A stretch of 64,000 bases of DNA from Tetrapyrgos nigripes (Eukaryota > Basidiomycota > Agaricomycetes > Agaricales > Campanellaceae), in NCBI GenBank assembly GCA_013368315.1, contig JAACJM010000248.1, forward strand, positions 54,587 to 118,586, in the 5' to 3' direction. Below, piece by piece: positions 2,299 through 64,000 of this stretch (its first letter is position 1; each line of letters begins with the position of its first letter). The position numbers were made by a program, and so were the translations under genes. Below the pieces are notes generated by a model that made no database searches, was not told the DNA's origin, and worked only from the letters and a program-made list of their open reading frames with translations.

Positions 2299-2715
2299 CA
2301 CTGGAGGCAAATCCCTGTAAATCATCTGCCATACAGAGGTATTACAGTGACCATACAACAAGTCATTCAATAAGTAATCCACCTTGTATTACAGAGGTAT
2401 TACAGAGAGAAGAATTTTCCAGAGCAATGCTGTAAGACTGCTGTAAGACAAGTTGTATTACAGGGACATTTCAGAGGCCAAATCCCTGTATATCCAGTGC
2501 CCTACATAGGGATTACAGCAAACTTACACCAAGCCATTCAACAAGTATTCTGCCTTGGATTACAGAAGTATTACAGAGAGAAGAAATTTTGGGAACAATG
2601 CTGTAAGACTGCTGTAAGACAAGTTGGATTACAGGAACATTTCAGAGTGACATGGTGTCACAGTAATACATTAGGTAATACAGCCAAGAAATACAGAAGT
2701 ATTTCAGTGTGACAA
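2299..2715 (+). repeat. Left subterminal arm of the 3.7-kb element
   Basis: Terminal inverted repeat part before the satellite. It carries many copies of TTACAG and GTATTACAGAG plus the palindrome GTGAC-ggt-like spacer-GTCACAGTA near 2649-2666. It is mirrored with few mismatches at about 5609-6025. The inner part (about 2497-2712) and its mirror contain a matching short open frame that I regard as non-coding. Confidence 0.85.
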
Positions 2716-4291
2716 AAGTGTGCAGGTAGCATCCAGAGTGCGTGCAGGTTGCATCCAGAGTGCGCGCAGGTTGCATCCAGAGTGTGCGCAGGTTGCGTCC
2801 AGGGTGCGTGCAGGTTGCATCCAGAGTGCGCGCAGGTTGCGTCCAGGGTGCGCACAGGTTGCGCCCAGAGTGCGCGCAGGTTGCGTGCAGGTTGCGCCCA
2901 GAGTGCGCGCAGGTTGCGTCCAGGGTGCGCGCAGGTTGCGTCCAGAGTGCGTGCAGGTTGCGTCCAGAGTGCGCGCAGGTTGCGCCCAGAGTGCACGCAG
3001 GTTGCATCCAGGGTGCGTCCAGGGTGCGCGCAGGTTGCGTCCAGGGTGCGTGCAGGTTGCGTCCAGAGTGCGCGCAGGTTGCACCCAGAGTGCATGCAGG
3101 TTGCGTCCAGAGTGCGCGCAGGTTGCGTCCAGAGTGTGCGCGCAGGTTGCGCCCAGAGTGCATGCAGGTTGTGTCCAGAGTGCGCGCAGGTTGCGTCCAG
3201 AGTGCGCGCAGGTTGCGTCCAGGGTGCTCGCAGGTTGCGTCCAGAGTGCGCAGTGCGCGCGGGTTGCGCCCAGAGTGCAAGCAGGTTGTGCCCAGAGTGC
3301 GCGCAGGTTGCATCCGTGCCCGCAGGTGGCATCCAGAGTGCGCACAGGTTTCGTCCAGGGTGCGTGCAGGTTGCGTCCAGAGTGCGTGCAGGTTGCGCCC
3401 AGAGTGCATGCAGGTTGTGTCCAGAGTGCGCGCAGGTTGCGTCCAGGGTGCATGCAGGTTGTGCCCAGAGTGCGCGCAGGTTGCGTCCAGGGTGCTCGCA
3501 GGTTGCGTCCAGAGTGCGCGCAGGTTGCGTCCAGGGTGCGCGCAGGCTGCGTCCAGAGTGCTCGCAGGTTGCGTCCAGAGTGCGCGCAGGTTGCGTCCAG
3601 GGTGCGCGCAGGTTGCGTCCAGAGTGCGCGCAGGTTGCGTCCAGAGTGCGTGCAGGTTGCGTCCAGAGTGCGCGCAGGTTGCCTCCAGAGTGCGTGCAGG
3701 TTGCGTCCAGATTGCGCGCAGGTTGCGTCCAGAGTGCACGCAGGTTGCGCACAGGTTGCGCCCAGAGTGCGCGCAGGTTGCCTCCAGAGTGCGTGCAGGT
3801 TGCGTCCAGATTGCGCGCAGGTTGCGTCCAGAGTGCGCGCAGGCAGGTTGCGTCCAGGGTGCGTGCAGGTTGCGTCCAGGGTGCGTGCAGGTTGCGTCCA
3901 GAGTGCGCGCAGGTTGCGTCCAGAGTGCGCGCAGGTTGCACCCAGAGTGCGTGCAGGTTGCATCCAGAGTGCACGCAGGTTGCGTCCAGGGTGCACGCAG
4001 GTTGCGTCCAGGGTGCACGCAGGTTGCGTCCAGGGTGCATGCAGGTTGCGCCCAGAGTGTGCACAGGTTGCGTCCAGAGTGCGCACAGGTTGCGCGCAGG
4101 TTGCGTCCAGGGTGCGCACAGGTTGCGTCCAGAGTGCGTGCAGGTTGCATCCAGGGTGCGTCCAGAGTGCGCGCAGGTTGCGTCCAGGGTGCGCGCAGGT
4201 TGCGTCCAGAGTGCACGCAGGTTGCGTCCAGGGTGCGCGCAGGTTGCCTCCAGAGTGCGTGCAGGTTGCGTCTAGATTGCGCGCAGGTTAC
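2716..4291 (+). repeat. 22-bp satellite array, left arm
   Basis: About 70 copies of a GC-rich 22-bp unit (core AGGTTGCGTCCAGAGTGCGC) with variants at a few positions (GAGTG/GGGTG, GCGCGC/GCGTGC/GCATGC) and occasional indels such as doubled half-units near 3018, 3250, 3844 and 4157. Because 22 is not a multiple of three and the unit lacks stops, several frames stay open for over 450 codons; these are not genes. Confidence 0.95.
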
Positions 4292-5606
4292 TCACCCTGG
4301 ATGCAACCTGCGCGCACCCTGGACGCAACCTGCGCGCACTCTGGGCACAACCTGCGTGCACCCTGGGCGCAACCTGTGTGCACCCTGGACGCAACCTGCG
4401 CACACTCTGGGCGCAACCTGCACGCACTCTGGGCACAACCTGCGCGCACCCTGGACGCAACCTGCACGCACCCTGGACGCAACCTGCGCGCACTCTGGGC
4501 GCAACCTGCACGCACTCTGGACGCAACCTGCACGCACCCTGGACGAAACCTGTGCGCACTCTGGATGCCACCTGCGGGCACGGATGCAACCTGCGCGCAC
4601 TCTGGGCACAACCTGCTTGCACTCTGGGCGCAACCTGCGCGCACTCTGTACACAACCTGCGCGCACTCTGTACACAACCTGCACGCACTCTGTACGCAAC
4701 CTGCACGCACTCTGGACGCAACCTGCGTGCACCCTGGGCGCAACCTGCGCGCACTCTGGACGCAACCTGCGCACACTCTGGATGCAACCTGCGCGCACTC
4801 TGGAAGCAACCTGCACGCACTCTGGACGCAACCTGCATGCACCCTGGACGCAACCTGCGCGCACTCTGGGCGCAACCTGCGCGCACTCTGGACCCAACCT
4901 GTGCGCACCCTGGACGCAACCTGCACGCACCCTGGACGCAACCTGCGCGCACTCTGGATGCCACCTGCGGGCACGGATGCAACCTTCGCGCACTCTGGAC
5001 GCAACCTGCGCGCACTCGGGACGCAACCTGCGCGCAATCTGGACGCAACCTGCACGCACTCTGGAGGCAACCTGCGCGCACCCTGGACGCAACCTGCGTG
5101 CACTCTGGAGGCAACCTGCGCGCACCCTGGACGCAACCTGCGTGCACTCTGGACGCAACCTGCGTGCACCCTGGACGCAACCTGCGCGCACTCTGGACGC
5201 AACCTGCGCGCACCTGGACGCAACCTGCGCGCACCCTGGACGCAACCTGCGTGCACTCTGGAGGCAACCTGCGCGCACCCTGGACGCAACCTGCGCGCAC
5301 TCTGGACGCAACCTGCGCGCACCCTGGACGCAACCTGCGCGCACTCTGGACGCAACCTGCGCACACTCTGGACGCAACCTGCGCGCACCCTGGACGCAAC
5401 CTGCGCGCACTCTGGACGCAACCTGCACGCACTCTGGACGCAACCTGCCCGCACTCTGGACGCAACCTGCACGCACTCTGGACGCAACCTGCGCGCACTC
5501 TGGACGCAACCTGCGTGCACCCTGGACGCAACCTGCCCGCACTCTGGACGCAACCTGCGTGCACCCTGGACGCAACCTGCCCGCACTCTGGACGCAACCT
5601 GCGCAC
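4292..5606 (-). repeat. 22-bp satellite array, right arm (inverted)
   Basis: About 59 copies of the same 22-bp unit in reverse orientation. The switch of orientation lies near 4290-4300 with only a few unique bases between arms. Variant blocks (for example the short unit ending GGGCACGGATGC near 4570 and 4970) also occur once, reversed, in the left arm near 3310, so the arms share some higher-order structure but are not identical in length. Confidence 0.95.
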
Positions 5607-5608
5607 TT

Positions 5609-6025
5609 TTGTCACACTGAAATACTTCTGTATTTCTTGGCTGTATTACCTAATGTATTACTGTGACACCATGTCACTCTGAAATTTTCCTGTAATCCAA
5701 CTTGTCTTACAGCAGTCTTACAGCATTGCTCCCAAAATTTCTTCTCTCTGTAATACTTCTGTAATCCAAGGCAGAATACTTGTTGAATGGCTTGGTGTAA
5801 GTTTGCTGTAATCCCTATGTATGGCACCGGATATACAGGGATTTGGCCTCTGAAATCTCCCTGTAATACAACTTGTCTTACAGCAGTCTTACAGCATTGA
5901 TCTGGAAAATTCTTCTCTCTGTAATACCTCTGTAATACAAGGTGGATTACTTATTGAATGACTTGTTGTAAGGTCACTGTAATACCTCTGTATGGCAGAT
6001 GATTTACAGGGATTTGCCTCCAGTG
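5609..6025 (-). repeat. Right subterminal arm of the 3.7-kb element
   Basis: Reverse complement of 2299-2715 with few substitutions. It ends GCCTCCAGTG immediately before the TTT duplication at 6026-6028. Confidence 0.85.
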
Positions 6026-8707
6026 TTTCGTCTAAAAATATGTATTCAACTCCTCTCATTTTCTCCTGAACTTGCTTAATGGATGAAGATTCATGTAAGA
6101 AACCAGTTTCTTTGTTATTATTATTTCGAATACCTAAAACAGAATGATAAGTAGAACCGTTCAGTAATGCAGCAGCAGTTCCTGTAGGTGCTAAACAGAT
6201 AAATCTGTAGTTCTCATCTCTCGCCTCAAAAAGGCCTTTCAATGCCTTAATTACTTGTGATTTTCCGGTGCCACCCATTCCTCCTAGATACATTTTCAGC
6301 TGCTCTACTTGAGGAGTGCTGATATGATTAGCAATAATCCGGAATGCTCTTTGCTGATCGCTGTTTAGTGTAAATTTTCTTACAATTGATTCAATTTTTT
6401 CTTGAGAGTCTGTTAAAACTGCAGTATAGTTTTTCATAAAGTATGCAGGTGGAAGGGTAGCCGTTGATGCTTGTGGCTGTGGTGGTAGCATAGGTGGTAT
6501 GCTTGGTGGTACGGAGGATTGTGAAGGGATTTGCGCAAGTCGTGCGTCATTCATTTTCTGCTTTAACTTTTTTATTATTGAATCCCATTCTGAGCCATTT
6601 CGCTTTTCAATTGGCTGAAAATTTGTTGGTGGCAAGTAACAGGATATTGTGTCTGGACCTTTGCCAAGCCATCCAATTTGTTGAAGCCAGTGTTCCATAT
6701 CTTTGCCCTGCTGACAATGTCTAAGATATTGTGGTCCTAGCATATCAACGTCTCCATACTCATCCATTTCTTCATATTCTCCATAGTGCTCTGCAGACTC
6801 ATGATCTGCATCATTTATTATAGCATTCAATGATTTCGGAAATGATTCAAATGAAAACCCTGTTTTTTTGAGTTGCAAATGAAAGTCATCACGAGCATCA
6901 TAACACTCATACTTTAAATTGAAGTTGTTTATTATTTCTTTCTGTCTCCGTGTAAATCCAAATTGCTCAAAGCTCTCTGACCAATTTTTATCAGATATTT
7001 TCAGATCATTTCCATCTCTCCATGGCTTAAATAAACATAGCATAGTCAAAAAATAAAAATCTTCATCTCCCTGATTCTTTTGGGGCAAGGAGCCACCTTT
7101 GAAATTAGGAACAATTTTGTACTGTCTGCTGCTATCACAATAGACTTCATGTGTTGAGTATTGAGGATGTTCATTTTGGAACTTATGATACCTTTTAGAA
7201 GTAGCACATGTACCTGTCATCTCAACATCATGAGAAACATGAGTTTTTCTTGGTTTTGGACATTTCTGGACATGTGCAGTTTGTATCCATTCATATAAAC
7301 TTATTGATCCATATGCTTCAGGTCTGAATCTGTAGTTATCAACTTGTGAGGTTCCATAAATCTTTTTTCGGTTTGTTTTCAATACTACCTTTTCAGCATT
7401 TTGTGAATCTTCTGGATGTGATGCTGTATACTGCTATGGTGCCTTGCTCAACACATCCTGCGAAGTGCAGTTTTTTACAGAGTCTGCTTCGAGATCTAGT
7501 TGAATAGCTGCAACATATGTCTGCCACCAAAAGTCAATGAATGAATGGCTGACATAGTGGTCTGGTAGGCCTAATAAATACAGTGAAGCAAGGGGACTTC
7601 CTATTTCAAGTTTTGTTTGTAAGCTATTAACCAAATGGATTAGAAGTGTTCGTGTAGTATATTCAGGATCTTCTGTAGTGTTGAGAATCTCAGCATTTCT
7701 TTCCAGAATATCAGACAATAAAGAAAAAATTTGGTGAGTTTTTAATGATTGCTTTGTAATATAATCTGAAACATATGCCACAATTGCCTTGATAGAAGTG
7801 CCTGACATCAGACTGGTAACATCAGTATTTGCCCTGATAGCATATGTCAGTTCAGCGGTAATGGTATTCATCATTGGTTCCAACTTTTTAAGATTAAGAT
7901 GACCGTCTTTGATGTCAAAGTGACTCTCTGAGAAAGTGTCCCGTGGAAATCGTTTCACGCACTCACCTTCTTTGTTTTGACAGCCCCTATATGCACTTCT
8001 TTTTATAGCTATAGTGCTAGCATTGTCACCTGGCTTGACAGTATTCTCGTCATTATACATTGACTTACATGTATGTATATTAGAGCGAAGCAAGATATCA
8101 TCAACTGTTTCCTCATATTTAGACCACCAGCTTTTCAATTCAATACACGCTGCACAGGGCTGAATAACATTTGTTTTGTTGTCTGTACTACAATCACAAT
8201 ACACTGGTGGCATATCTGGTAATGTCTGTGTCGGATCCTGATAGTGCATCGATGCTTTAGAAGACTGCTCAGTGACTATATCATGAATACCTGTGCTTGA
8301 TGTACGTACATGTGGAATCTTATCCTTGATTTCAGTATGGATACCTGTTAGAAACTCTCCTCTATGTACACTTTCTAGGTAATCAATTAGTGCTTGCTGA
8401 AACTCAGAATCATTATTCATGATTCTGTCTCGCATTTGTTGAGGAGTCAGTGCTGCTCGTATCCATAATAATAGATGCAGAGGAAGTGTGAGCCTTCCTT
8501 GTTGCTCAACTGTCCCATAGTATGCAGCTGTGTCACCAAATATACCCATATGGTCTGATTTGACACCTAAAATGTGAAGTAAAAACATTTTGACCATGAA
8601 GTTGAAGAATTTTGCGGCTGCCACAGGATTCTCTGCAATTAATTTATAACGCTCATTATAGGATCTTAGCTCTGGACTAAATGTTGTTTTTGTATCAGCA
8701 AAATATA
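6026..8707 (-). pseudogene. Helitron helicase, middle third (Rep Tyr motif to PIF1 Walker A)
   Basis: Read from 8707 down to 6026. The piece starts YFADTK, completing the Helitron-like N domain begun at 28.9 kb. It then has the Rep-type motif LTLPLHLLLWI (about 8500-8460), the two-tyrosine motif YVSDYITKQS (about 7790-7760), a linker, and the PIF1 helicase N-terminus NSDQQRAF with Walker A GGTGKS (about 6275-6258) and APTGTAAALL. A TAG stop at 7434-7436 interrupts the frame; the next 17 codons are open and lead into the following 497-residue open stretch in the same frame. In most relatives the Rep motif is His-x-His; here the first position is Pro (codon 8481-8483). Confidence 0.88.
8705..8707. 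repeat. Target site duplication ATA (left) of the 20-kb element
   Basis: ATA directly before CACTGGG at 8708, repeated at 28933-28935 after the opposite terminus. Deleting the element and one copy rejoins the helicase as HPISLYFADT, matching the family. Confidence 0.88.
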
Positions 8708-46421: not shown

Positions 46422-47093
46422 ACATGTTTCAATTGGTGTAGACCTCGTGTAGAAGTGGCAATCATGTAGCACCGCCTTGCGCATATGACGAGGACCATAA
46501 TTACTTTGACTTCCGTCAGGTTTCGCTTCAGTGCCCCACCCCATCTCAACATCTCAATTTCTTATGTGCGTAGTCATTCACAGAGCTCATATATGAGTAG
46601 GAAGACTAAACTTACGCCTGACGTTGCATTCATCAACACCATAAGTACTTCGACCCAACTTTCCCTCAGGCTCGCTTTAGTATCTCCCTCCCTATTCGTA
46701 AGGTGCGTAGACGTTTACACAGCTCAAACACGAGTAGAAAGGCTAAACTCACAACTTTCACAAGACTCAAAGGCACCAACTCTTAACACCTGACCTGACA
46801 GTGCTTCTTACATGGCTCGTCGAGGTTACGACTTTGCTCATCGAATTGTATCCTTAATGTCCGCTTCGGTGAGGTCGGCAGAACTTGGGAGACCTTCACT
46901 GCGTAGTTTCTTACACAGTCTCCTGTACGTCGTTTCTTATATTCCTCGTCGAGGTTATGGCTCTGCTCATCGAATTGTACCCTTCCAGAATGGTCTATCT
47001 GAGATGGAAAGACACAATATCAGTTGTGACATCTCCACATGATCCCTTACAAAAGCGCACCCGACCTCGCCGGCTTATCAACACACGCACTAT
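46422..47093 (+). repeat. Segmental duplication, copy A (5' part of HET gene)
   Basis: From ACATGTTTCAATTGGTG to CACGCACTAT this 672-bp segment matches 49655-50344 with limited divergence and a few short insertions (for example a 15-nt difference near 49925). It covers the upstream region and the first codons of the HET gene. Confidence 0.9.
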
Positions 47094-49654: not shown

Positions 49655-50344
49655 ACATGTTTCAATTGGTGTAGACCTCGTGTAGTAGTGGCAATCGTGT
49701 AGCACCGCCTTGCGCATACGACGAGGACTATAATTACTTTGACTTCCGTCAGGATTCGCTTCAGTGCCCACCCCCATCTCAACATCTCAATTTCTTAGGT
49801 GCGTAGTCATTCACAGAGCTCCTATACGAGTAGGAAGACTAAACTTACGCCTGACGTTGCATATCATCAGCACCATAAGTACTTCGACCCAACTTTCCCT
49901 CAGGCTCGCTTTAGTATCTCCCTCCGCTGTCGATATCTTTATTCGTAAGGTGCGTAGACGTTTACACAGCTCAAACACGAGTAGAAAGGCTAAACTCACA
50001 ACTTTCACAAGACTCAAAGGCACCAAATCTTAACACCTGACCTGACAGTGCTTCTTACATAGCTCGTCGAGGTTACGACTTTGCTCATCGAATTGTATCC
50101 TTAACGTCCGCTTCGGTGATGTCTACAGTTACAACAGCAGTTCCGAGACCACTGCATATTTTCTTACAGTCTCCTGTACGTCGTTTCTTATATTCCTCGT
50201 CGAGGTTATGGCTCTGCTCATCGAATTGTACCCTTCCAGAATTGTCTGTCTGAGATGGAAAGACACAATATCAGTTGTGACATCTCCACATGATCCCTTA
50301 CAAAAGCGCACCCGACCTCGCCGGCTTATCAACACACGCACTAT
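49655..50344 (+). repeat. Segmental duplication, copy B (truncated HET 5' part)
   Basis: Second copy of 46422-47093. It keeps the upstream region and the first HET codons (ELYPSRIVCLRWKDTISVVT, RRLINTRTI). Homology stops at ACTAT, exactly at the target duplication of the 7-kb element that follows. No HET sequence is present on the far side of that element (57354 on). Confidence 0.88.
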
Positions 50345-50345
50345 T
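50340..50345. repeat. Target site duplication ACTATT (left) of the 7-kb element
   Basis: ACTATT directly before the ATGGAAACCC terminus; the same six bases at 57354-57359 follow the other terminus. A shorter 4-bp reading (CTAT) is possible if one more base is counted into each terminal repeat. Confidence 0.75.
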
Positions 50346-50370
50346 ATGGAAACCCGGAAGGCCTCGCTCG
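50346..50370 (+). repeat. 25-bp terminal inverted repeat, left
   Basis: Perfect match to the reverse complement of 57329-57353. Further in, only weak similarity remains (a TAAGCGAT motif on both sides). Confidence 0.88.
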
Positions 50371-50691
50371 CTCCGGAGAGCCTCGCAGACTATAAGCGAT
50401 CATGCCGGCAATACGGCACCTCCGATATGGAAATCAGACCCCAGACACTTCGGTGTATAGAGAGTTATGTAAGTATGTAAGCTGTTATTCAAAAGACTGG
50501 AGATATTGCGAGCATCGTGTATGGGTATCTCACCTCGTTCTCAGGCTTCAAATCAGCTGCATTTTTTGAACTGTATATGGATGCGTTCAAAGTGCTCAAA
50601 GGACTGGAGACTTTGATAGATTTTACGAGATTTTACATGCTGGTACATAGACTGAGAGAAGATATGATTTGTAAATAGATTGTAGTTTGTT

Positions 50692-52590
50692 TTACTCTTC
50701 ATCTGACTGTGCTTCGTCAGATGTGAAATCAACAATGCCATCGACCAAACCACCATCTTCAATATCAGCTCCCAGACCACCTCTCACACCACCCATATAG
50801 CCACCTTCTGAATCATGATGTAAAGGTAAGAGATCATCGAGAATAGGCTCAGATGCATCTTCCGGAAGTGGAGGCCTAGGCGCCCAGGCATTGTCACCAT
50901 AGCCTGAAAGACCCATTGTCTCAAATATGGCAGGGTCCACTTCAAACATAGCCAATAAATCCTCATAAACATTCCACACATTGTCCCTTGTTACAGCGGG
51001 AGATCCAAGTTGCTCATAATACACAGAAGCCCAATGATTGAACTCTGATGGCACAAGATCAAAAACGGGATGATCAGGAGGAGCATAAAGTTTCTCAGCG
51101 TCGTGGATATAATCAGCGTCAGCATTAATCACAATCTGTCAATAAATAGTGATATAATAAGTATACAAGCAAATGAAATTTAGAGTATATGCTGTTGCTT
51201 ACTTTGAAGTTGAGTGAATTGTAGCGCTCAGGATGTTCGTCAATGTCATCTGGAGGCCCATGAGGGAGAATCTTGTGCTTCTGAGCACGTTTCAGTGAGT
51301 TGTTGACCCGGTGAACATAAGCATCAATTTCGAGTTGTAGCCATGGAATGAAAACCCATTTGAATACATTGCTAGGATTAAGGATATGAGAGACAGATCA
51401 AGTGTGATCAGTAAAGGAAATGCTCACTACTGGAGAGGATGGTGGGGGTCATATTGCACAGAGGCACTTGATAAAATGTTCTCAAAGCCTGGCATGAAAT
51501 TGCAGCGTAAATTTGACCAGGTAATCTCGGGAGGAATATTGCTTTTCTCCCGCATGAAACGATGCTGTAAAGTACCGATCAATTGGGGGTCCAGGCACTG
51601 GCGGATGTATGAATGTCCCTTAGCCAAGTGAAAGTTCTCGGTGCCTGGGTCGCTTTGAGTTACAAGAGATGTGTCTGCAAAATATTCCATCAGAAAGAGA
51701 GAAGATATTTATTTGTTAGTGCACCTCACATCCATCCTTCTTGATAGTATCAAGGTAATACCTAAAGATCAGCCGTGGATTGGAGTTGTTATGCCAGACC
51801 TTCATCCACTTTATTTTGCCAGAGAAAGGATCAATTCCTGCATTGCAGAATAAATTCATAAGCATACAATAATTAGAAACAAGCTGATACCTGTATGCAA
51901 AGCTAGACCATATTTCTTGAGCTTATCATGCTGGTCAACGCAAAGCATGTCATTGACGCCAGCTGCCCAAAATCTCCGACGCTTGAGTCTTCTTCTTCGA
52001 CGTGCCCTCACCAAATCTGGCTCATAGCGACGGAAGTATTCCTCGATAACTGATTTGTGTGTCATACGTTGTTAATCTTGATTGATAGTGACATAGATCA
52101 GAAAACTTGCCTCTTCACTTCCTTCTTCAGATCATGGTGGAAAATCCTCTTGATACCTCTTGCGCCGGCCACAGGATAGTATTTACGTAGTGATATCATG
52201 TCTTCTATAATATCTTCGACTTGTAAATCTGAAAGCACTGGTTAGTAGATATCAAATTGTGAATGTAAAGGCATGCAGACTAGAAGAGCGTGATCGGTAT
52301 AGCCCCAAGCTTGTACGTATTTGGCGGAGTTTCTTAATCCTGGTAGACTCATATCAGCTTTTCGTACGAGGATTTTACAAGCTTTGAATAATGACTGACG
52401 CAATTCCATATTGTTCTGTATCAAAAAGTTTGTCTTCATAAAGATATGCCAAAATCTTCACGTCACTGAAACCTCGATCCCAGTACTTTCGAATGCTGGG
52501 TTCGATGAGTTCAATAGGGGCTGCATGTAATCAATCAGTCAATGAAATGTCTAGATGTGTACACGTACGAGTAGGTTTGTTTCTTCCCAT
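50692..52590 (-). CDS. Integrase-core (DDE) transposase, intact
   Basis: Starts MGRNKPTR at 52590; short exons follow with GTACGT..CAG introns. Exon 2 reads PIELIEPSIRKYWDRGFSDV with DTEQYGIASVIIQSL; a 46-nt intron (CTGAT branch point) leads to IKKLRQIRTSLGLYRSRSS, an HTH. Later exons: EDIIEDMISLRKYYPVAGAR; VIEEYFRRYEPDLVRARRRR with RLKRRRFWAAGVNDMLCVDQ and HDK (first Asp); GIDPFSGKIKWMKVWHNNSN with YYLDTIKK; VTQSDPGTENF (second Asp); TLQHRFMREKSNIPPEITWS (Glu); NVFKWVFIPWLQLEIDAYVH; and the acidic tail DLLPLHHDSEGGYMGG. This order is that of the Agaricomycete integrase-core family. All tested joins keep frame, so the enzyme should be functional and move the 7-kb element. Confidence 0.85.
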
Positions 52591-53459
52591 TCAAGCTGAG
52601 CAAGGAATAAAAAGGACAAGATGAGGACCAGCAATGGCTCGATGAATAACTTCGAAGTCAAGGATGGAGTACTTATAGTCTCCAGTCTAGTAGACAATGC
52701 TGCGGGCAGCGTGCAGCATTTGATATGCATTTCTGTTGCCCGTGTGGCGGTTGAGGCCTCCATTTGAACGGTCGAACTTGCGTTGTATTTGTCACTCGAA
52801 ATTTCCAACGGATTTTTCAGCGGTGAAGATCTTAAAAACTTGCGTCCGTATAATGCCTGTATAACGGTTTTTTGTGTTGCTTGCAGGGGACCACATATCA
52901 GAATCAACATGAGGCTCCTCGGTTGTCTTCGGAGGACCACATGCCAGATGTGAACTTACCCGTCATATAGGTTCGAGTCTAATAGTGGATTTGTGGCGCG
53001 CTGAGTCTGAAAATTGTTGTTGTTGTACTTGCATCCGATCCGAGTCTGATTTGTGGATTTGTGGCGTGCTGAGTCTGGAATTTTCAGCGGTTGAACTTGT
53101 GTCTCGTCAAAAACTTGCGTCCGTATAACATCTCATGGGCTGCTTGCGGTCAAACTTGTGTCCGATTGAGTCTGATCTGAGTTCAGAATTTCCAGGATTT
53201 TTTTGCAGCGGTCAAACTTTGAAAAACTTGCGTCCGTATAATGCCCGTATAGCATTTCATCGGTTACTTGCAAAGGACCATATGCCATGAGGCTCAACAC
53301 AAGATTTCTACCGCACACGATTGACTGGTGGCAAAAAATCAAGTGAATCACTGTCAGATTAAGAAAAGACTATGGCTCGTATAAATACCTGAAGCTTATT
53401 TCTGGAATCCATCATCCTTACTAGCAATCCTCGATTGAACCTGCCTGCCTCTGATCTCA
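52591..53459. promoter_or_regulatory. Divergent intergenic region with repeated CTTGCGTCCGTATAA motif
   Basis: The 869 bases between the two start codons. CTTGCGTCCGTATAA occurs three times (about 52840, 53115, 53230; first on the plus strand as AACTTGCGTCCGTATAATGC), each followed by a TTGC/CTTGC segment and preceded by a TTTCCA/TTTTTTGCAGCGG segment. GATTTGTGGCG(C/T)GCTGAGTCTG occurs twice (about 52987 and 53050). They could be binding sites shared by both genes, but might equally be remains of tandem duplication. Confidence 0.45.
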
Positions 53460-56259
53460 ATGACCTCCCTCCCTCCGGCCCAAGAAGTCAATGCTTTTAC
53501 GAGCGATGATCGTGCTCCAGAATCATTCAACTGTGAGCGGTGTGGAGTGTTTGTGAAGAAGGGTAATGAATGGGGTTACTTCAAGAATCCTGCTGGCCGT
53601 GATAAACGGACCTGCAAGGACTGTAAGAGGTACTATAGCAAGGGTGTAGCCCAGTGTCAAGGTGCATTGTTTTTATTTATCCGATACATTTTCATTTATC
53701 CAATCATTTTTTATTTCTATTTAGATACCTTAAGTCGAAGTCGTTCCACCAGCTCTTCCACTCATTCAGGAATGATTGAACCACTTCCAAATCCTGACAT
53801 GATAGCATCGAGGGTAAATGCAGCTCAACGTGCCAGTGAGGATTTCTTATTTTTTATTACAACGAACGGCTCACCTAACTTCGATTAATAGATGCTAGCC
53901 GGGAAATGAGCCATGTCACTCCTATGAGCAATTCAGGTAGAATCAATCCATTTTTACTTTTGTGATTATTTCTCATTAATTTTTGAAGGTCCTTATGTCA
54001 GTCTGCCCAACCTGAGTCGCAGTTCTGCAGTATTGAGTGGACCGCATGGATATGTCTCGAGGCCAAGAGCAACTGGTTATTCTCCTGCTCACCAACATCA
54101 CTCTGCACAAACCGATCTGTGGCGATCCAAAGCTTATGCACCTAGTGGCGAGACTGTGGCGGTGAACATCACTGTCGGTCATGCTACTGAAGGTAAAACA
54201 GGTCATGAACTGTTGAATGTTGGTATTTCTGCATTCTTAAACTTGTTATGCTGCTCACCACCATCCACAGGGGATTTCAGATTCCATTCGAGACCTTGAT
54301 GTGAATCTTACTGTGCCTGAAGTCCGCCACGCAGTTCTGGACCTCATGAAGCCCAAAATCAATCAGTTCTCAGCTGAAATCATGGGATTCTGTTTCAAAT
54401 TCGATGAATTCAATTTAAGGGAAATCTCCAAGTCACTGAATGTTGACATGGACGGACCAACATTAGATCGCCGTACACCATACTTTCGACCTCAGTGCAT
54501 GAAAGCTGATAAGAAAACCAATCAACTGAAATTTCACCGGCCATCAACACCATTTCGTCTTCTCTTGCTCATCTCCGCAAAAGAATGGGATCGTTACGAG
54601 TCTTTATTGGAGGCGCAGGCACATGCAAACGTGAGGGGATTTTATTTGGTATTACTATTCCGTATTTCTGACTGACTTATATTGTTTTCTAGGACTTACC
54701 AATTATCCGTACCACTTCCACGAGCTCTTCTCATTCATCATGGGCAAAAGGTTTACAAAGTGTGCGTACTCAATGTAAGTTATGGTTATGAATGTTCTAT
54801 ACTTACACATCTGTTTGTAGATTCCCTCAACAGCGACTTCGTCAGCTTTAAATACAGCTAGCCCCAAGACTTCCGCTGCTATCTCTTCAGTATCAATGAC
54901 TGACTTGATTGGGGATGACAGTGATACTGCACGTACCTCTGCCAAACGACCTCGCAGCGTATGTACACTTCTACTTCCCATATCAATATTCTCTGAAGCG
55001 CCCATATACTTTTAGACTTCCAGTGTGACACCAACGACTCCTCCACGAGCCAAAAGAGCTCCAGCACCATTCCTTTCACCAACGGAAAATCGGATCACTA
55101 GTGCTTTGATAGCAGGCGGATTGAATTCTGACCAACACTCAGACATTAGCTCACTCACCACCATGCAGGGCCTCGTTGCTCCCATACCAACGGTCTCCTT
55201 TCTTGACATCATCAACCTCGACAATGTTCATACCAGGTTCATATTTGACAATGCTGTGCTTTCCTCCGTCGCACATTTGCAGGCTGATTTGCGCTTTGAG
55301 TCAGAACTTGGCGTTGGGGCTTTCAAAACTTGTCACCCGGCCAAGCTGATCTGTTCAGAACAAGTAATGACTGCCAACTCTGTTGTGATGAAGGAACTTT
55401 ATAAAAACAAGGGCCTTAGAGAGAACAGCAAAGTGTACGCATTATTTTTTCTATACTATAAGACAAAACTAATTCTCTTAACACTTCGTCAGAGTCAATC
55501 GAGGCAGATATAGCGGAGTGGTTGAATTTGACGGAATCATGATTGAAGCCAACGTTCATTATTATGCCGTTGCCTTAATGGAGTTTGCATATGCATATAT
55601 TGAGCGACAAAAGCTTGAGAAAGGTATCTATCCTTTTACTCATTGTTTAACTTACTGATCATTTGATGCTAACAGGTCTCCCTGACCTCCCTATTCCAAA
55701 TTTGAGATATGTTGAGGCTGCAGTGTTCATGGTGCAGAACAATGAGATCAGACATTCAAGATCAAGTACTGCTGGGCCAAAGCGTACATATTTACTGGAG
55801 GAACGGATCGCTCTGCCACCAGGCCAGGACTTTATCAAATACATCCATAACTCGAGCCCCTTACCAGCCATTCCTCCCGAGCATCCTGAATACAACACTG
55901 CATTATTCCTAGCAGCAGTGCAACATCTTCAGTATGAGAAAACATATCAGAGCGCATATGTCTCTGATTTCCAAGGTTATGGTGGACTGCTTTCTGACCC
56001 GCAAATAATGACCTCTCCGTTAGTTTTCCTTATCCTTGGTATGTGGTGGTATACTAAGAATATTTCCAGTAAACTCTTACAGGTGATTTTCAGAGAAGGA
56101 GCTGAAGCTGCTGCTCTAGACCCAAAAACCTCACTTTTCGGGGATGGAAATGTTCAGAGCGGGTTTGAAAAGTTTCCCCTAAATCATCAGTGTGAGGGTA
56201 ATCCTTTTTGCGCATGGATGGAATTGAAGCCACTTCAGAATGAGCTTCAGGATGAGTGA
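53460..56259 (+). CDS. Zinc-finger atypical alpha-kinase (transposon cargo)
   Basis: Starts MTSLPPAQEV at 53460. The N-terminus has a CERC...CKDC zinc-binding pair around GNEWGYFKNPAGRDKRT. Several introns and Ser/Thr-rich linkers follow, then an alpha-kinase (MHCK/eEF2 kinase-type) domain: FESELGVGAFKTCHPAKL (glycine loop), VVMKELYKN (lysine), RYVEAAVFMVQNNEIRHSRS, YLLEERI, FLAAVQHLQY, YVSDFQGYGGLLSDPQIMTS (catalytic Asp and DPQ), LFGDGNVQSGFEKF and NHQCEGNPFCAWMEL (His-Cys-Cys zinc site). The domain looks complete, with the usual order and all key residues. Alpha-kinases phosphorylate Ser/Thr; the substrate here is unknown. Such kinases are expanded in mushrooms; presence inside a transposon is the notable point. 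Confidence 0.82.
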
Positions 56260-56536
56260 GTGCAGACTCGGTAGATGTTGCTAGCCTATAGCCACACTCT
56301 ATTTCCTGTACATATCTTCAATTTCTATATACACATTTCGAATTCTATGGCCGTACGAGTGTACACTTGCCAGAAGGATTATTTTACTTTGAAAGAAATG
56401 TGCAGATGGCATCATTCCTGGTATCACAAAGAGCAAAGAAAGATACAACAAGCTTGTATCGAGGAGGTAGTTGCACATTTCTCGCTTCATCTGGTTGCTT
56501 ATACTATGACAAAAGATCAGTCAATAGACTGATGGT

Positions 56537-56965
56537 ACCTCTGATTCTCGTTACTGTACCTTCGTTTTCCATCAGCAACTCTTAATTTTTTTCTATTTAA
56601 CTACCATCTTATACTAATTAAACAAAGATACCTACTACAGAGCTTAGTAGTAGAACCATCTGTTGCTAGAGCTGGGTGAAAGCCACCCTACGACGCCAGA
56701 AGAAGCGTGGGACATCCGCCCTTCCAAATTGGTACTAGTCATTAGTCATCCAAGGATTGACCGACGATGCCTCTGATTTTCATTACTGTACCTTCGTTCT
56801 TCATTAGCAACTCTTTATTTTCTGTATTTAGCTACCCTATGATATTAATCAATGAAAGGTACCTACTACAGAGCTTAGTAGTAGATCTATCTGTTCAAAA
56901 CGACGCCACCGGAAGAAGCGCCCTTCTAAATTGGGGAGTCGGTTAGTCATCCAGCGATTGAATCC
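56537..56965 (+). repeat. Tandem duplication, about 235-bp unit
   Basis: The segment with TCGTTACTGTACCTTCGTT, CCTACTACAGAGCTTAGTAG and GACGCC..GAAGAAGCG at 56537-56768 repeats with substitutions and a 40-bp deletion at 56769-56965. It lies downstream of the kinase gene inside the 7-kb element. Confidence 0.82.
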
Positions 56966-57328
56966 CTATTGTTTCTTGGCCATAGCTTTTTCTATGACCT
57001 CCCCATTATGGAAAAAATGAGGAGGACTCCTAGAATCGCTACATGTATATCGACACCCTTATATTGTGAGAAAAGTGTAATGAATACCCGGAGACAGCGA
57101 ACGCAGTCATGGATAGTGGCTTGACTTATTGTGTGTCGATTCCTAAGGCAGTGAGTCATGTATTTATTGCAGAGAATGTACTGCCTCGGACTGAAGCAAT
57201 GTCGCTCTCACAAAAACCTCTTGGATTTCGATACTTAATAAATACAAATTAATACACAAATCAGGGACAGAGAGTGCTCGAGAGTGCTCGGGGTCCGAAA
57301 CCTCGCCAATCAAAAATGAATCGCTTAA

Positions 57329-57353
57329 CGAGCGAGGCCTTCCGGGTTTCCAT
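57329..57353 (-). repeat. 25-bp terminal inverted repeat, right
   Basis: Mirror of 50346-50370, followed by the ACTATT duplication at 57354-57359. Confidence 0.88.
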
Positions 57354-57359
57354 ACTATT

Positions 57360-58455
57360 CCGTCAGCTCGGCAGAGTCGGCACCAAACTTCTCCGCAAAT
57401 TCTCCGTCAACTTTCGTCGAGCAACGAACCAGTGACCAGTTCATGACCCACACCTACCCTCTTCAGAGTCTATTGCATTTTGTGCAATGGGATGAGGACT
57501 CGTACCTGCCGCTGTATACAGTGGCCCCACCGACATATTACCAACGTTGCGTTCTTCGCCGGTTCCATGCGTATACATGCAATGGTTTTGGGAAGCCATT
57601 AACTCATGCTGGTTACAATTACCTGTCGTGCACTGGTTTCATGGACCTACAGCTCCATTCCCCTATCATTCGTAATCTCGATTGAAATCAGGACCAAGTT
57701 CATTTTCATTTTCATTTCTAAACATGTTCGCGATATCGCATTCTTTATTCAAAAGTTCGTTTTCATATTATTCCGCGTTGGCTCATGCTATTCACTCAAA
57801 ACCTCATAAATGTAGATATTTTTTCATACGAGTGACGATTGGTTGTCTACCTCTTACATATACTTAGCACCATGTTATATACTTCCGTTGTGTAGTAGCT
57901 CGGGTAGCATACTTTTAACACCATTATTGTCGTCGTTTCCTCAACGCAGAATATTCCAGCATCCTAATCTAGAGTGAGTGAGATAATACGCCGCTACCTA
58001 GTACTAGCTACTGAAGGCTTTACATCTGTATATAGACGTGCGAAGCAACTATCTACAGTCTAAAATATACGGGCAGAACTCTCTACCACCGAGATAAGCG
58101 GCAAATAAGCCTCTTTCCATGACTATACAGAAGACCGTGAATAGGGGTTTTTGGCTCCCCGTGACCACTTTTTTTGCAGAATTTCGCCTTTGATGCGTTG
58201 TATGATGTCGCTGTATTTCCGAGTCTCTTCTCCCCCCACTCCACCGACGACTACATCGAGTACTGCGAATACGACGACAACGACAGGTACCACTCAACCC
58301 GACTCCCGACTGCGCCTATATCCTCCCCACCCAAATCCTCAGCCGCGGCGCCTCCTCCCATCCCTCAATCAAACCTAAACACCGACTCCCTAGACGACCC
58401 ATCAAGAAGGCTACCGCCCGAGTTGACGGTCAAGTTGGAACACAGTGAACAAAAT
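57360..58455. other. Intergenic, no gene recognised
   Basis: A plus-strand frame at 57443-57685 (MTHTYPLQSLLHFVQWDEDS) is open for 80 codons but matches nothing I know. Part of 58140-58240 (GGGTTTTTGGCTCC, GTATGATGTCG) resembles 58865-58945, suggesting an old duplication around the MITE. Confidence 0.3.
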
Positions 58456-58461
58456 TAAGTA

Positions 58462-58836
58462 CTGTACCATTTCGAAGAGGTTGCTCGCATCACGCATCAC
58501 AGAGGCTTTCGAACAGTTCATTTTCGATGCTCGTCACGCATCACAGGCTGAACTGAACTGCGTGAGTCAAAAACGGTAATTTTGATATGTAAAAAGCAAA
58601 ATAAATCTCCTGTCCCCCCAAATAGCTGTTTTTGCACTCAGTAAGGCCAAAATCAGCCACGAATCTGCTATAAAGTCGCAATTTACATTGAAAGAAGCCC
58701 ATAAAAGCACTTTGTGGCAAGCAAAATGAACCGAACTGTTCGTTGTCGCACGTCATTTTGTCTTTCGAACCGACTGAACTGGAGCTTGAAAACATCACAG
58801 CCCAAAGTGACCAAATACCTCTTCGAAATGGTACAG
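58462..58836. mobile_element. 375-bp MITE with TA duplication
   Basis: A 20-bp perfect inverted repeat (CTGTACCATTTCGAAGAGGT) at 58462-58481 is mirrored at 58817-58836; both sides are flanked by TA (58460-58461 and 58837-58838). There is no coding capacity. The TA duplication points to mobilisation by a Tc1/mariner-type enzyme, though the termini do not match the Tc1 element at 15.8 kb. Confidence 0.75.
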
Positions 58837-58839
58837 TAT

Positions 58840-60340
58840 CCGCACACGCAGACGCGTTTCGGCGATAGGGGTCTTTGGCTCCGGGACAGTCGGCAATCGG
58901 ACCTACTTGGCCTTTTACACGTGGTATGATGTCATCCAAGTCTCCTCACGACACTGCGGGCAGCCATTGATATTTGCAGGCATTTTTGTGGAGACTTAAA
59001 TTACGAAATTTTCACACGATTTCCGGGATGATAAAAGCTGATAAAGTCAAAGCATTTGCCGCCGAAATTCGGCTCCCAATTGGGAAATTCCCATCTGATA
59101 CTCGGCTAGATTTGCTAGATTTCTACATCCGTCGTCGTTCAGAGTGAGTTCTTCCCAAGTTCTCCACCTCCACCTCGAATAATTGAAGCGGTATCACGTT
59201 CAAATATGAGATAGCCCCGTCGACAGTCCTGCAGCCTTCTGAATCTATAAGATTAGTACACAACACATGCATTTTTTATCGCCTTCCAAATATGTATGTA
59301 CGTACCAATATTCTTCTCGGAGAAGGAATTACTTCGTATCATCCTTTTTTCTAACAGATACGCATGCACAGTACTGTAAAATCTTCAATCAATGCCTGAA
59401 CTCTGAGGAAGACTTCACAGGAGCAGCGTCGTACTTACATGTTCAGGGTGGAACTATATTGACAATACAATCCATAAGCGAAGATACAGATCAGTAGGAC
59501 ATGTACTGATACTCTTTGTTCAAGGAAAAATCCATGACGATGACAACAATGAGCACCTCTGCATGATGATCTTCTCATTTGGCGCAGGATCCAGCTTGAA
59601 GGTGGCTCATATGCGTAGTAGGTAGAATGAATCTGAGCAGACAACTTATCGGATCATCTTCGCTTGGAGGTACGTACCTAAGCGATTGTCATTATCATTA
59701 TCATTATCATTATCATCCCCAGCGGCCTAGGTGCTCTCTAAGCTTGCCCATCCCGAGTGCGCTACCCCGGAAGAGAACCTAAGAATAGAAACACATATGC
59801 TCGGGCTCCAAGCCACCGCCACAGATACACTATCCGTTTGCGTCCGCAATTATGTACATATTCATCTTTTACTTTAATTCATTGGACATGTATACAAGTA
59901 CAGTAGATGTAGATATGTAGACATACAACCCGCCCCTGTTAGACACTAGAGACCTCGTCTTTCAGGTGATAGAAAAAGAGAATTAGAGTTTATTCTGATC
60001 AGGGGAATCCCACCTGCGGAATCTCAGTTATTGAATAGGGGAATTCCAACCTGCGGACTCGCAGTACTACGGAGGAATCTCCGTCTGATTGAATACACTT
60101 TACCCAACTGCCCACCCTCCGAGATAATCCTAGAGAGTGTTGATCTTACCTCCTCAATACTCTTATCATTCGAGACCCCTTCGAAACTTAAGGAGTCTTG
60201 CTGAGTGTTTTATTGTGGATTTAGTGGTTTTCTATTGAAAGCACATTTCTATCTATACAATCACCAGCCCTATCATTACTGGCTATGTAACCTCTTATAA
60301 CTTTTGACTCCCACCGGCGGACTTCCTTTACAGTGCTGTA
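58840..60340. other. Intergenic with a short ATTATC microsatellite
   Basis: Five copies of ATTATC lie at about 59690-59720. 59937-60331 starts TGTTAG and ends TTTACA, as some solo LTRs do, but has no target duplication. No gene seen. Confidence 0.35.
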
Positions 60341-60580
60341 CGTCAATTTCATATCAATCAACGACTCCTCCCAGCCGGTATCTCCACATTCTCGTACTTA
60401 TTCGCGGATCCGGACGCTGTTCCTGTAGAAGACTTTGCAAATGGGAATCCCGCTCCTGGATCATTGGGGTGTAAGCCGTTCAAATAGTCATCTTTTCCAT
60501 CTTCAATTGCTCATGATACCATACTTATGCTTTGAAAGGAACACACTCCTCCGAGATATTCTACGTCTTTGGCATGCTCA
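60341..60580 (+). pseudogene. Fragment of a second carboxylesterase gene (3' exons)
   Basis: From 60341 the sequence matches the last visible exon of the gene at 62.2 kb (63905-64000) at nearly every base: LLPAGISTFSYLFADPDAVP, then VEDFANGNPAPGSLG, an intron with GTGTAAGCC near the donor and a TTTGAAAG acceptor (about 60538), then GTHSSEIFYVFG, which fits the catalytic-His region (H-S-E-I-x-Y-V-F) of type-B carboxylesterases. No upstream part of the enzyme is present, so this is a truncated duplicate. Confidence 0.75.
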
Positions 60581-60584
60581 TTCT

Positions 60585-62180
60585 TAACTTTTCCTTCCGG
60601 CCGCGTACTCGCCACGCTTGGGCGCTGGCCCACACCTCTTTCATACTAGTGGATTACCAGCGGCCGCGTTCGCTTCTCCTCCTTCATCTGGGTCTTCCTC
60701 CCTGCTCTCGTTCTTTGAAGCTACAGCTACAACAATAGGGACAGAGAACGGAGATGCAAGTGGAGAAGGAGCTGAAGATGGCAAAGGAGGAAGGCCCTGT
60801 CGCTACATCCTCACAGGCTACCACTTCCCCATCGGAGTCTGGATACGACGGTTAGAGTTTGGGATGTGCTAACGGGGTGAGTGGGTTTCCCAAACTTCTA
60901 TTCTGGATTTTCTTCGGGTTTTTAAAGGTTTAGTATAGGACGTGTATAAACATCCTCTCAAACCACACCTCACTCGTGTGTCAGGTCCAGCTTTCACCTG
61001 GGAGTGAGGTGCGGGGGAATCCTACTTCTGATCTACCTTCCCATTTGTCTATACCGATCTCGAGGAAAACGAGCTCGGACATCTATCTCACTCATCTCTA
61101 AGTTAATTCTTTCAAGTTTAGCAGTGCTGGCCAGTTCTCCCTGTATTCAAACCTTACTTTCCCCTACACCCAATTGGCGCTCGTGGGCCAATCGGGTCTG
61201 TTGGGAGATTACGGTTACAGTAAAGGCAGAACCCGTAGTTGCTCTGCCTAGTAGTAATCAATCATTACAGTCCCATATATCCATCCACGTGTCGCAAGGA
61301 TCATTATTAGGGTGGTCTGTTATTACTTGTTCAGAGGTATCCACAGTGACTGACCCATGCACCTCAGGCTGTAGAACGAATGCATCCTGCACAGCATGTA
61401 CATATTCGACATTCTGTTTTACCTGTAACAAGATAGAAATATCATGGGGAGTATCTGTACCCTGATTCCCTGTACAGACTATAATTAGCATGTATTTGAC
61501 CTGAACCAGGTACTCTACATTCTGTATTGTACATGTACTTGTACTAACATGCTGTAGAGTCATTCCCACCTGGGTGACTATGTGAAAGGGCCTCGTAACT
61601 TGCCACGCGAAGCGATGGCCCTTTACCCCAGTACTAACATGCTGTAGGGTCATTCCCAAGTGTTCCCATGCTGCAACGGTCTCCGGGCTTTTGCTGATGC
61701 ATCTGTGATTTTTATGCTGTGAGTTTGGCCGGCTGGGTCATTCCCAAGTGTTCCCATGTCTGCGACGGTCTCCGGGCTTTTTGCTGATGCATCTGTGACT
61801 CTTATAGTATCGTTCTTTTCTGCGCGGCAGCTGTGAGTTTGGCCGGGAGGTTTTTCGGAATATGAGAGATGTCTCACAAACGAAGACCCAGACAAATCTA
61901 GACAGAAGCCGAAGCTTGTGGCTCGTCTCGACGGCGGACGCACGTCATTATTGTCTCGAGGGCGTCCGGGAAACTCAGGATCGCAGGACATATGATGGGA
62001 CATTGTAGCGGGACATTGTAGCGAGACAGTGTATACTACAGGACACAGGCGCAGTGAATATGCAGTGTCCGGCGATCCTCGGATAGGTGGGTAGGTTCCC
62101 GTGGCATGGGAAGGAGCATAGTACCGTTCAGTAGCCATGACGCGATTCGTTGAGTCAGCAATAGGGTACACTTAGCCATG
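60585..62180. other. Intergenic with local duplications
   Basis: A block with GTCATTCCCAAGTGTTCCCATG and CGGTCTCCGGGCTTTT, ending TGTGAGTTTGGCCGG, is repeated at about 61651-61731 and 61737-61845. A related shorter block with TACTAACATGCTGTAG occurs at 61542 and 61632. No gene recognised. Confidence 0.4.
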
Positions 62181-62181
62181 A

Positions 62182-62189
62182 CTATTTAA
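62182..62189 (+). promoter_or_regulatory. TATA-like box of the carboxylesterase gene
   Basis: TATTTAAA lies about 40 bases before the ATG at 62230, a normal spacing for a fungal core promoter. Confidence 0.4.
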
Positions 62190-62229
62190 ACTGACCAAGT
62201 CATTCGTCCCCAAACAACATTCTTCCACT

Positions 62230-64000
62230 ATGCCACTTGTCCTGCTTCTGCTCTTGGCATTCTCAACATGTACTTCTGTCTTTGGCACAGGCCCAAGCGT
62301 TTCGATTGGAGATTTCACTTTTGTTGGACGGCAAACCTCAGAAAACGTTGAATTTTTTGGAGGTGAGTAAAGCAGTCAAAGTGGAGTCAAATGTTAACGA
62401 TATCCGATATTCGAACCAAACTGGAACTATACGCAGGTATTCCTTTTGCAGAACCTCCGATTGGTAACCTGCGCCTCAAACCGCCGATCCTCAAGACCTT
62501 CTCATCTGGACGACACACCGTGTTCAATGCAACCCAATTTGGTCCTTCTTGTATTCAAACTCTGATTCCTGTGGGCGAAGTATCGGAGGATTGTCTCAGC
62601 CTGAGTATCTTTCGTCCAGCAAATCTCGAATTAGACCAGGCTAAGGGTGACGGTCTATCAGTCATGGTATGGTTCTTTGGGGGTGGGTTCATCGTAGGAT
62701 CTTCTTCGATGTACGACGGAACACCGCTAGTCAACCGTAGCGTTTTCAGGGTACGAGACACAGATTAATAGAGAGAATGTCATATCTGATCCAGACTCTG
62801 ACCTCTACAGGGGACACCTACCATCTTCGTCGCTGTCAATTACCGCCTAGGACCGTTGGGGTTTCCACGCGGAGACGACGTTGCAAGGGAGGTCGCTGCT
62901 GGATCTCGTATTCTGAATCTTGGATTACAGGATAATATTGCAGCTCTGCAGTGGATCCAGAAACACATCGTTTCCTTTGGTGGTGATCCGTCAAAGGTAG
63001 TTCCAAGAGTTTGTTGCACGGTTACATCTTTTCAACGACACAATTGTAGGTTACCGTATTTGGTGAAAGCGCTGGGGCCCGTGCCATCGAACTCTACTGT
63101 TGAGCAACCAGATTCAGGGTCTGGCAAGAGGGGCGGTAAGCAAATCACACATTTACCTCTTGGCTCCTCCTATTTCTTAATGTGAGATCCAGATCATGGA
63201 ATCAACGGACGGAGTAGCGCACATATCTTCCACGTCTTCCACCGCGATACAGTATGGGATAATTTCATGACTGCTCTACCTCAATGCGCAAATACTTCTA
63301 TGACCGATGTCGAGTGCATCCGAAACCTGAAAACCTCGGAGTTAATCGAAGGGTTCGGTCGTTTATTTTCCAATTCTACAGGAAAAAATTGGCTGCCAAC
63401 TCTCGATGACGATATAATTCCTAGCTTTCCATCCACACTAAAGCCTGACCATGGAGTCCTCGAAGCTGTTATAATTGGATGCAACAAAGACGAAGGTAAT
63501 AGCCTCGCAGCCTTCAATCTAAAATCCCTTTGAATTCATCAATGCATTTCCAGTAACGCTTGTCACCGACCAAACGATAAACTCAACACAGGCGATAAGC
63601 GATACGATTCTCGGATCACCTCCATCTCCACCGAACGCTTCACCATCCCAAAGAAAAGTGCAGCTTCAGGAGCTTCAATATATTTTCGAACAAACGCTGG
63701 CTCTATACCCAAATATCCCTTCCTTGGGATCTCCTTTCGACACTGGCAACGAGACCTTTGGATTAGATCCAGAGTACAAACGTTCTGCAGCCGTATGTGA
63801 GTATTCTAGTTCTTTCGTTCGTTCACTCCATCTAATTGGAAGCTAACCTCTTTGGATTCTTACCTGCTTGCACAGCAACGGATAAAGGATTCCAGGCTGA
63901 GCGTCGATTCCACATCAATCACCAACTCCTCCCAGCCGGTATCTCCACATTCTCGTACTTATTCGCGGATCCAGATGCTGTTCCTGTACAAGACTTCGTG
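62230..64000 (+). CDS. Secreted type-B carboxylesterase (partial, probable frameshift)
   Basis: Exons by splice sites: 62230-62362, 62437-62750, 62811-62996, 63050-63135, 63193-63495, 63554-63796, 63876 to the window end. The N-terminus MPLVLLLLLAFSTCTSVFG is a signal peptide. Family motifs: GIPFAEPPIGNLRLKPP, SEDCLSLSIFRP, VMVWFFGGGFIVGSS (oxyanion hole), FVAVNYRLGPLGF, LGLQDNIAALQWIQKHIVSF, GGDPSKVTVFGESAGA (nucleophile Ser). Just after, near 63094-63098, a one-base loss is needed to pass from RAIELY to LLSNQIQGLARGA; then IMES, IIPSFPSTL and LPAGISTFSYLFADPDAVP. The acid residue and catalytic His lie in part beyond the window. It would hydrolyse carboxylic esters outside the cell if the frameshift is not real. 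Confidence 0.8.

Follow-up and report, generated by a model that had tools for sequence, protein, structure and literature searches.

In a 64,000-nucleotide stretch of the agaric Tetrapyrgos nigripes (GCA_013368315.1, contig JAACJM010000248.1, positions 54,587–118,586 of the forward strand; the whole stretch is called the window below), we identified a 7,010-bp element that carries two divergent genes, one for an integrase-type transposase and the other for an alpha-kinase. The element is a mobile DNA transposon. We consider it very probable that it is of the IS3EU/GingerRoot type, that the alpha-kinase is a long-standing component of its lineage rather than an accidental pick-up from the host, and that the kinase would act for the transposon. 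Below, we describe the element and its copies, compare it with known relatives, and weigh the association of its two genes across the genome.

A preliminary description of this locus had reported 25-bp inverted repeats, and these are exact (50346–50370 and 57329–57353); allowing up to three mismatches, the 25-mer has two matches in the window against a mean of 0.00 in 100 shuffles. Comparison of the full copies extends this by one shared base on either side; the element thus spans 50345–57354 and its terminal inverted repeats are 26 bp long, with TATGG.. at 50345–50370 on the plus strand matching ..CCATA at 57329–57354 on the minus strand perfectly. The repeats also occur beyond this locus, as genome-wide the 26-mer has 61 matches at up to three mismatches and its reversed control none. 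Five further full-length copies with 99.56–99.77% identity lie on C154, C20, C160, C58 and C163 (C-numbers denote contigs of the T. nigripes genome), all with the TATGG..CCATA termini of the window copy, and a sixth further copy, on C401, is cut by the contig end. Exact 6-bp target duplications flank eight of the 10 insertions examined: the full copies on C20, C160, C58 and C163, and copies on C109, C150, C18 and C53 that are free of both kinase and transposase by tblastn. The C154 copy has a 7-bp target duplication. In addition, C279 represents the left flank of the window insertion without the element, the flank ending in CACTAT and running directly into CGAACTCG. The near-identical copies, the target duplications at other copies and this insertion-free allele show that the element is mobile, as the preliminary description had proposed, and it is recently active. 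An Rfam scan of the window gave no matches.

The transposase gene occupies 50692–52590 on the minus strand. Our manual model has nine exons (52590–52563, 52520–52379, 52339–52281, 52228–52107, 52041–51891, 51837–51730, 51674–51428, 51371–51203 and 51135–50692) and encodes 489 amino acids with the Pfam integrase core PF24764, which a 492-amino acid variant of the model matches at E 1e-08. Placing the acceptor at 52042 makes each of the eight introns GT-AG. The exon 4/5 junction (52106–52042) is uncertain, since the GT-AG model drops the residues VIE that are retained in the homologues looked at, and the join suggested by these homologues is non-GT-AG. A frameshifted transposase was ruled out by the in-frame GT-AG solution at 52106–52042, and in the alignment inspected the copies on C300, C142 and C3 are similar there. 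Short near-repeats are found at the ends of this intron (GTCATT in these three copies).

Among 528 transposase homologues, 120 were listed, and the recognisable named ones among them are mushroom-forming basidiomycetes. In an alignment of 50 of the 120 (A2), D148 and D203 of the homologue P0022 are nearly invariant and E244 is invariant. Their equivalents in the window transposase, D153, D212 and E253, with 40 residues between the last two, likely form the catalytic triad. A lone cysteine (residue 151) precedes D153 in the 489-amino acid model, which therefore has no HHCC motif.

The alpha-kinase gene lies at 53460–56259 on the plus strand and was modelled manually with 11 exons (53460–53661, 53725–53835, 53892–53936, 53989–54192, 54281–54630, 54693–54761, 54821–54958, 55016–55434, 55493–55623, 55676–56018 and 56094–56259), encoding 725 amino acids. 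Every intron is GT-AG, and with both models open, the earlier impression of two intact-looking divergent genes was upheld, one transposase junction being uncertain. The protein matches PF02816 (E 1.1e-12, 48.9 bits against a cut-off of 21.3). An annotated T. nigripes relative, P0001, is 92% identical to it over the searched region, and all 42 PDB matches of the predicted P0001 fold (mean pLDDT 66) at E <= 0.001 are alpha-kinases. By its domain and the predicted fold of this relative, the protein belongs to the alpha-kinase family. Its N-terminal CxxC...CxxC motif (53532–53624, plus strand) is putatively zinc-finger-like; two N-terminal cysteine pairs (CxxC or Cx4C) are present in six of the eight kinase proteins looked at, including P0001, and we infer that they form a zinc finger. 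A Pfam search found no match over this motif. The pairing of an integrase-type transposase with an alpha-kinase that has a zinc-finger-like N-terminus thus agrees with what had been noticed at first.

Residues of about 175–300 in P0001 form a predicted folded central part. Weak-scoring streptokinase domain rows appear in the P0001 fold search, and the central part may be placed with beta-grasp-like folds. A PDB sequence search with the kinase returned three chance antibody matches and nothing else useful, and a profile search with an alignment of 15 of 16 kinase sequences (A1; P0015, a short match, was omitted) was unproductive, with six proteins found. Between the two genes is an 869-bp spacer in which the longest open reading frame (ORF) wholly inside has 121 codons; an ORF overlapping the spacer has no Pfam match above the cut-off. 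The element has no TET/JBP gene: PF12851 has two matches in the genome (C284 and C404), none of them on the contigs of the window or the other full copies.

These features fit the IS3EU/GingerRoot type, judging from the termini, target duplications, gene content and Pfam class. As described in the available text of PMC10045372, this type is marked by TA..TA ends, usually 6-bp duplications and the lack of an HHCC motif, and the Tetrapyrgos element shares with it the TA..TA termini, usually 6-bp duplications and an integrase-type DDE transposase without HHCC. The word ‘kinase’ does not occur in the main text of PMC10045372, whereas the element described here carries an alpha-kinase. The closest counterparts are found in Kojima 2025 (PMC12730594), where, in the text available, IS3EU elements with alpha-kinases are reported in rusts, and all TET-positive IS3EU families have a TET gene between transposase and alpha-kinase genes of opposite orientation. 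The TET-positive families of rusts and Tuber resemble our element in the 6-bp duplications and the opposite orientation of the two genes, and TATGG..CCATA fits the TAYGG..CCRTA termini given there for rusts. They differ from it in host, in having the TET/JBP gene between the other two and, in the rust elements, in terminal inverted repeats of >30 bp compared with 26 bp here.

Fungal KDZ elements with TET/JBP genes (Kyakuja, Dileera and Zisupton) are likewise DNA transposons in which the transposase gene is accompanied by one for an enzyme, but they belong to another transposase superfamily and carry a dioxygenase instead of a kinase; for Zisupton, 8-bp duplications are given in the available text of PMC12730594, in contrast to the usual 6 bp here. 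In comparison with eEF2K, myosin heavy chain kinase A and TRPM7/ChaK, the Tetrapyrgos kinase has a predicted catalytic fold of the same kind but differs in its N-terminal cysteine motif, its central part and its location on a transposon. The preliminary description knew of no named element with this content; a fungal IS3EU with a transposase and an alpha-kinase in opposite orientations is already in print, in passing, in the portion of PMC12730594 available. Our literature search, with Repbase and supplementary files outside its scope, turned up this combination in no other paper and found no report of a TET-free agaric member of IS3EU or of a genome-wide link between transposase and alpha-kinase genes. 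What we add is a TET-free agaric element of the known alpha-kinase-bearing IS3EU kind, and the genome-wide link of the kinases to the transposase.

Evidence that the two genes belong together comes from how often they are neighbours. Transposase and terminal-repeat loci were grouped by hand from the listed matches, with 87 of 146 transposase candidates scored in a first set and 84 of 132 in a second, weak set, so the counts are lower bounds. An alpha-kinase match lies between the ends of eight of the 15 facing terminal-repeat pairs, and at least 11 of the 38 kinase matches in the genome have a terminus no more than 12 kb away, against an expectation of 0.45. With at least 32 transposase loci, at least 13 of the 38 kinase matches are within 15 kb of one (0.37 expected), 11 in divergent and two in convergent orientation. 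When nine weak loci are added (at least 41), the number rises to at least 19 against 0.47 expected, with 15 divergent pairs, four convergent and none on the same strand. By a rough count, the 19 pairs represent about nine lineages. Divergent orientation as a general rule was discarded on account of the four convergent pairs (C139:200949–203975, C151:149467–152496, C31:100746–101983 and C261:14436–15635), which are arranged tail to tail, unlike the window element. On C190 (98693/102538), C477 (11054/14900) and C41 (434275/430609), weak and distant transposase matches with 25–26% identity to P0044 lie about 3.7–3.8 kb from kinase matches in divergent orientation, and these perhaps represent another two-gene family.

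The association extends to other genera, where the genes are neighbours as the preliminary description had anticipated: in Marasmius sp. AFHP31 (PQX77_011602/011603) and Paramarasmius palmivorus (VNI00_008427/008426), the locus tags of the two genes follow directly on each other and their contigs are of equal length. In Pleurotus pulmonarius they are on equal-sized contigs, with no adjacency established. Counting all three genera, such a partner on a contig of the same size was seen for at least three of the 13 kinases listed outside T. nigripes, among the 120 listed of the 528 transposase homologues. Distances among kinases and among transposases are congruent across four pairs (Spearman 0.83), which is weak evidence as the six distances are dependent.

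Selection on the two proteins was estimated by comparing the window copy with diverged, partly broken copies. For the kinase (C300, C142, C65 and C3), dN/dS is 0.047–0.071 in the domain and 0.132–0.152 over exons 5–11; for the transposase (C300, C142 and C3), it is 0.029–0.036 in the core and 0.078–0.089 overall; dS is saturated (1.7–3.3), so these values are rough and their direction alone is safe. Among themselves the broken copies have dN/dS of 0.2–0.9 for the kinase and 0.4–1.2 for the transposase, which fits decay. Purifying selection on the kinase is thus supported, if roughly. Decay is also evident among the six full copies, which differ by 54 singleton substitutions (counted in columns with a five-to-one split, leaving aside the truncated copy on C401); 43 of these are C>T or G>A, and 35 of the 43 are at CpG. 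C-to-T change at CpG is the usual mark of methylated CpG, and its prevalence here suggests methylation of the element by the host.

Several results weigh against the reading of a long-standing IS3EU pair. No related transposase was detected within 15 kb of half of the kinase matches (19 of 38), and 22 of the 41 transposase loci scored have no kinase match within the same distance. Weak transposase matches (E 1e-7 to 1.3e-4, 21–28% identity) underlie six of the 19 pairs, and another six are near-identical copies of the element. If PF24764 loci alone are considered (72 taken from the list), two of the 38 kinases are within 15 kb of one compared with 0.83 expected; one of these pairs shares a strand and the other is convergent. 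PF24764 traces the linkage poorly, and the clade of the window transposase scores low with this model. The filing under IS3EU was made from the termini, duplications, gene content and Pfam class. The predicted model of P0022 (mean pLDDT 79) gave nothing at E <= 0.001 in a Foldseek search against the PDB, the top rows, all above E 0.001, being TnsB, IstA and retroviral integrases. To these are added the saturated dS, the decayed state of the copies compared for selection, and the lack of an in-register target duplication at the window copy itself.

This last point concerns the window locus, where another explanation is quite probable: that the assembly has joined two insertions through the 7-kb repeat, and that the locus is not a single genuine insertion. 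In register, the left flank ends in CACTAT and the right flank begins with CTATTC, so that CTAT alone is shared. The 6-bp duplication ACTATT that had been claimed here includes the outermost base of the element at both ends; it is coincidental, and both the register and the empty allele contradict it. Given the empty allele on C279, the right flank of the insertion would be expected to start with CACTATCGAACTCG, and a search of the assembly allowing up to three mismatches did not find this junction. The actual right flank (57355–64000) is not the expected partner of the left one and corresponds to the sequence that lies right of the C154 copy (6,647 bp aligned up to the contig end, with no substitutions and 11 gap openings). 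Within the element, the window and C154 copies differ by eight substitutions, none of which is right of 54086, and by eight single-base gaps, seven of which are. From the missing duplication, the C154-like right flank and this distribution of differences, the window copy is probably a mosaic joining the flanks of two insertions. The same traces would result from a true crossover between two copies, the contigs concerned may represent different haplotypes, and the single-base gaps do separate the right parts of the two copies. An assembly join would in any case be limited to the window locus, the other copies being sound insertions.

Next to the element, the window has a direct repeat of about 0.7 kb with 92.6% identity (46422–47093 and 49655–50344). 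Its first copy runs uninterrupted past the position that the element occupies in the second and is thereby a paralogous empty site. Elsewhere, a stretch of C18 (L046, C18:91000–100900) includes an element of 7.5 kb (about 1116–8621 of the stretch) with termini of the same type and an exact 6-bp duplication, TTATTG. It holds neither a window-type transposase nor a kinase, and one of its ORFs presumably resembles another DDE transposase; the stretch is possibly a non-autonomous copy in which other sequences are nested.

The other explanations concern the kinase. It is unlikely that the gene is a captured host passenger of no use to the transposon, although the kinases without a detected transposase would allow for this, and the short kinase-free copies on C109 and C150 have also moved, as their 6-bp duplications indicate. 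Such short copies can use a kinase supplied in trans. The kinase adjoins the transposase in Marasmius and Paramarasmius, several diverged families within the T. nigripes genome have the opposite-strand arrangement, the dN/dS of the kinase domain is low, and the pairing is given for every TET-positive IS3EU family in the available text of PMC12730594. That the kinase works for the host or keeps the element in check, with its mobility incidental, seems very improbable: kinases do act in signalling and the alpha-kinases of rusts are described as highly expanded, but the near-identical kinase copies were spread by the transposon itself, and the related copies compared have in-frame stops or gaps, unlike genes that benefit a host.

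We therefore favour a transposon with a kinase of its own. The transposase would recognise the 26-bp TATGG..CCATA ends, cleave at TA and integrate the element with a 6-bp duplication, as the family and the duplications suggest, and its family points to a cut-and-paste mode. Since the kinase is apparently kept by selection together with the transposase, it probably serves the transposon. It may do so by phosphorylating the transposase, or a host chromatin, repair or cell-cycle factor, with the N-terminal cysteine motif and the predicted central domain as possible targeting parts. With the CpG decay suggesting host methylation, escape from silencing is one candidate role: the kinase would phosphorylate a chromatin factor and relieve methylation-linked silencing, and thus possibly acts against silencing by CpG methylation.

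The alpha-kinase family is highly expanded in rusts according to the text available of PMC4469406, and the preliminary description had suggested that a mobile kinase explains the expansion in mushrooms. For T. nigripes this is supported for a part of the alpha-kinases, namely the 19 of 38 matches beside a related transposase. A broader proposal, for which we put the chances at slightly below even, is that the alpha-kinase is an obligatory helper across an entire lineage of fungal IS3EU transposons, licensing transposition or countering silencing, and that such transposon genes, together with their decayed remains, make up most of the alpha-kinase expansion in Basidiomycota. If many of the expanded alpha-kinases are transposon genes, as about half of the T. 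nigripes matches seem to be, fungal expansions of this family, which have been reported as traits of gene families, need to be interpreted anew. For a mobile element, keeping a protein kinase under selection would be an unusual way of influencing the host or its own transposase, and T. nigripes, with near-identical copies and an insertion-free allele, offers a workable system in which to test it.

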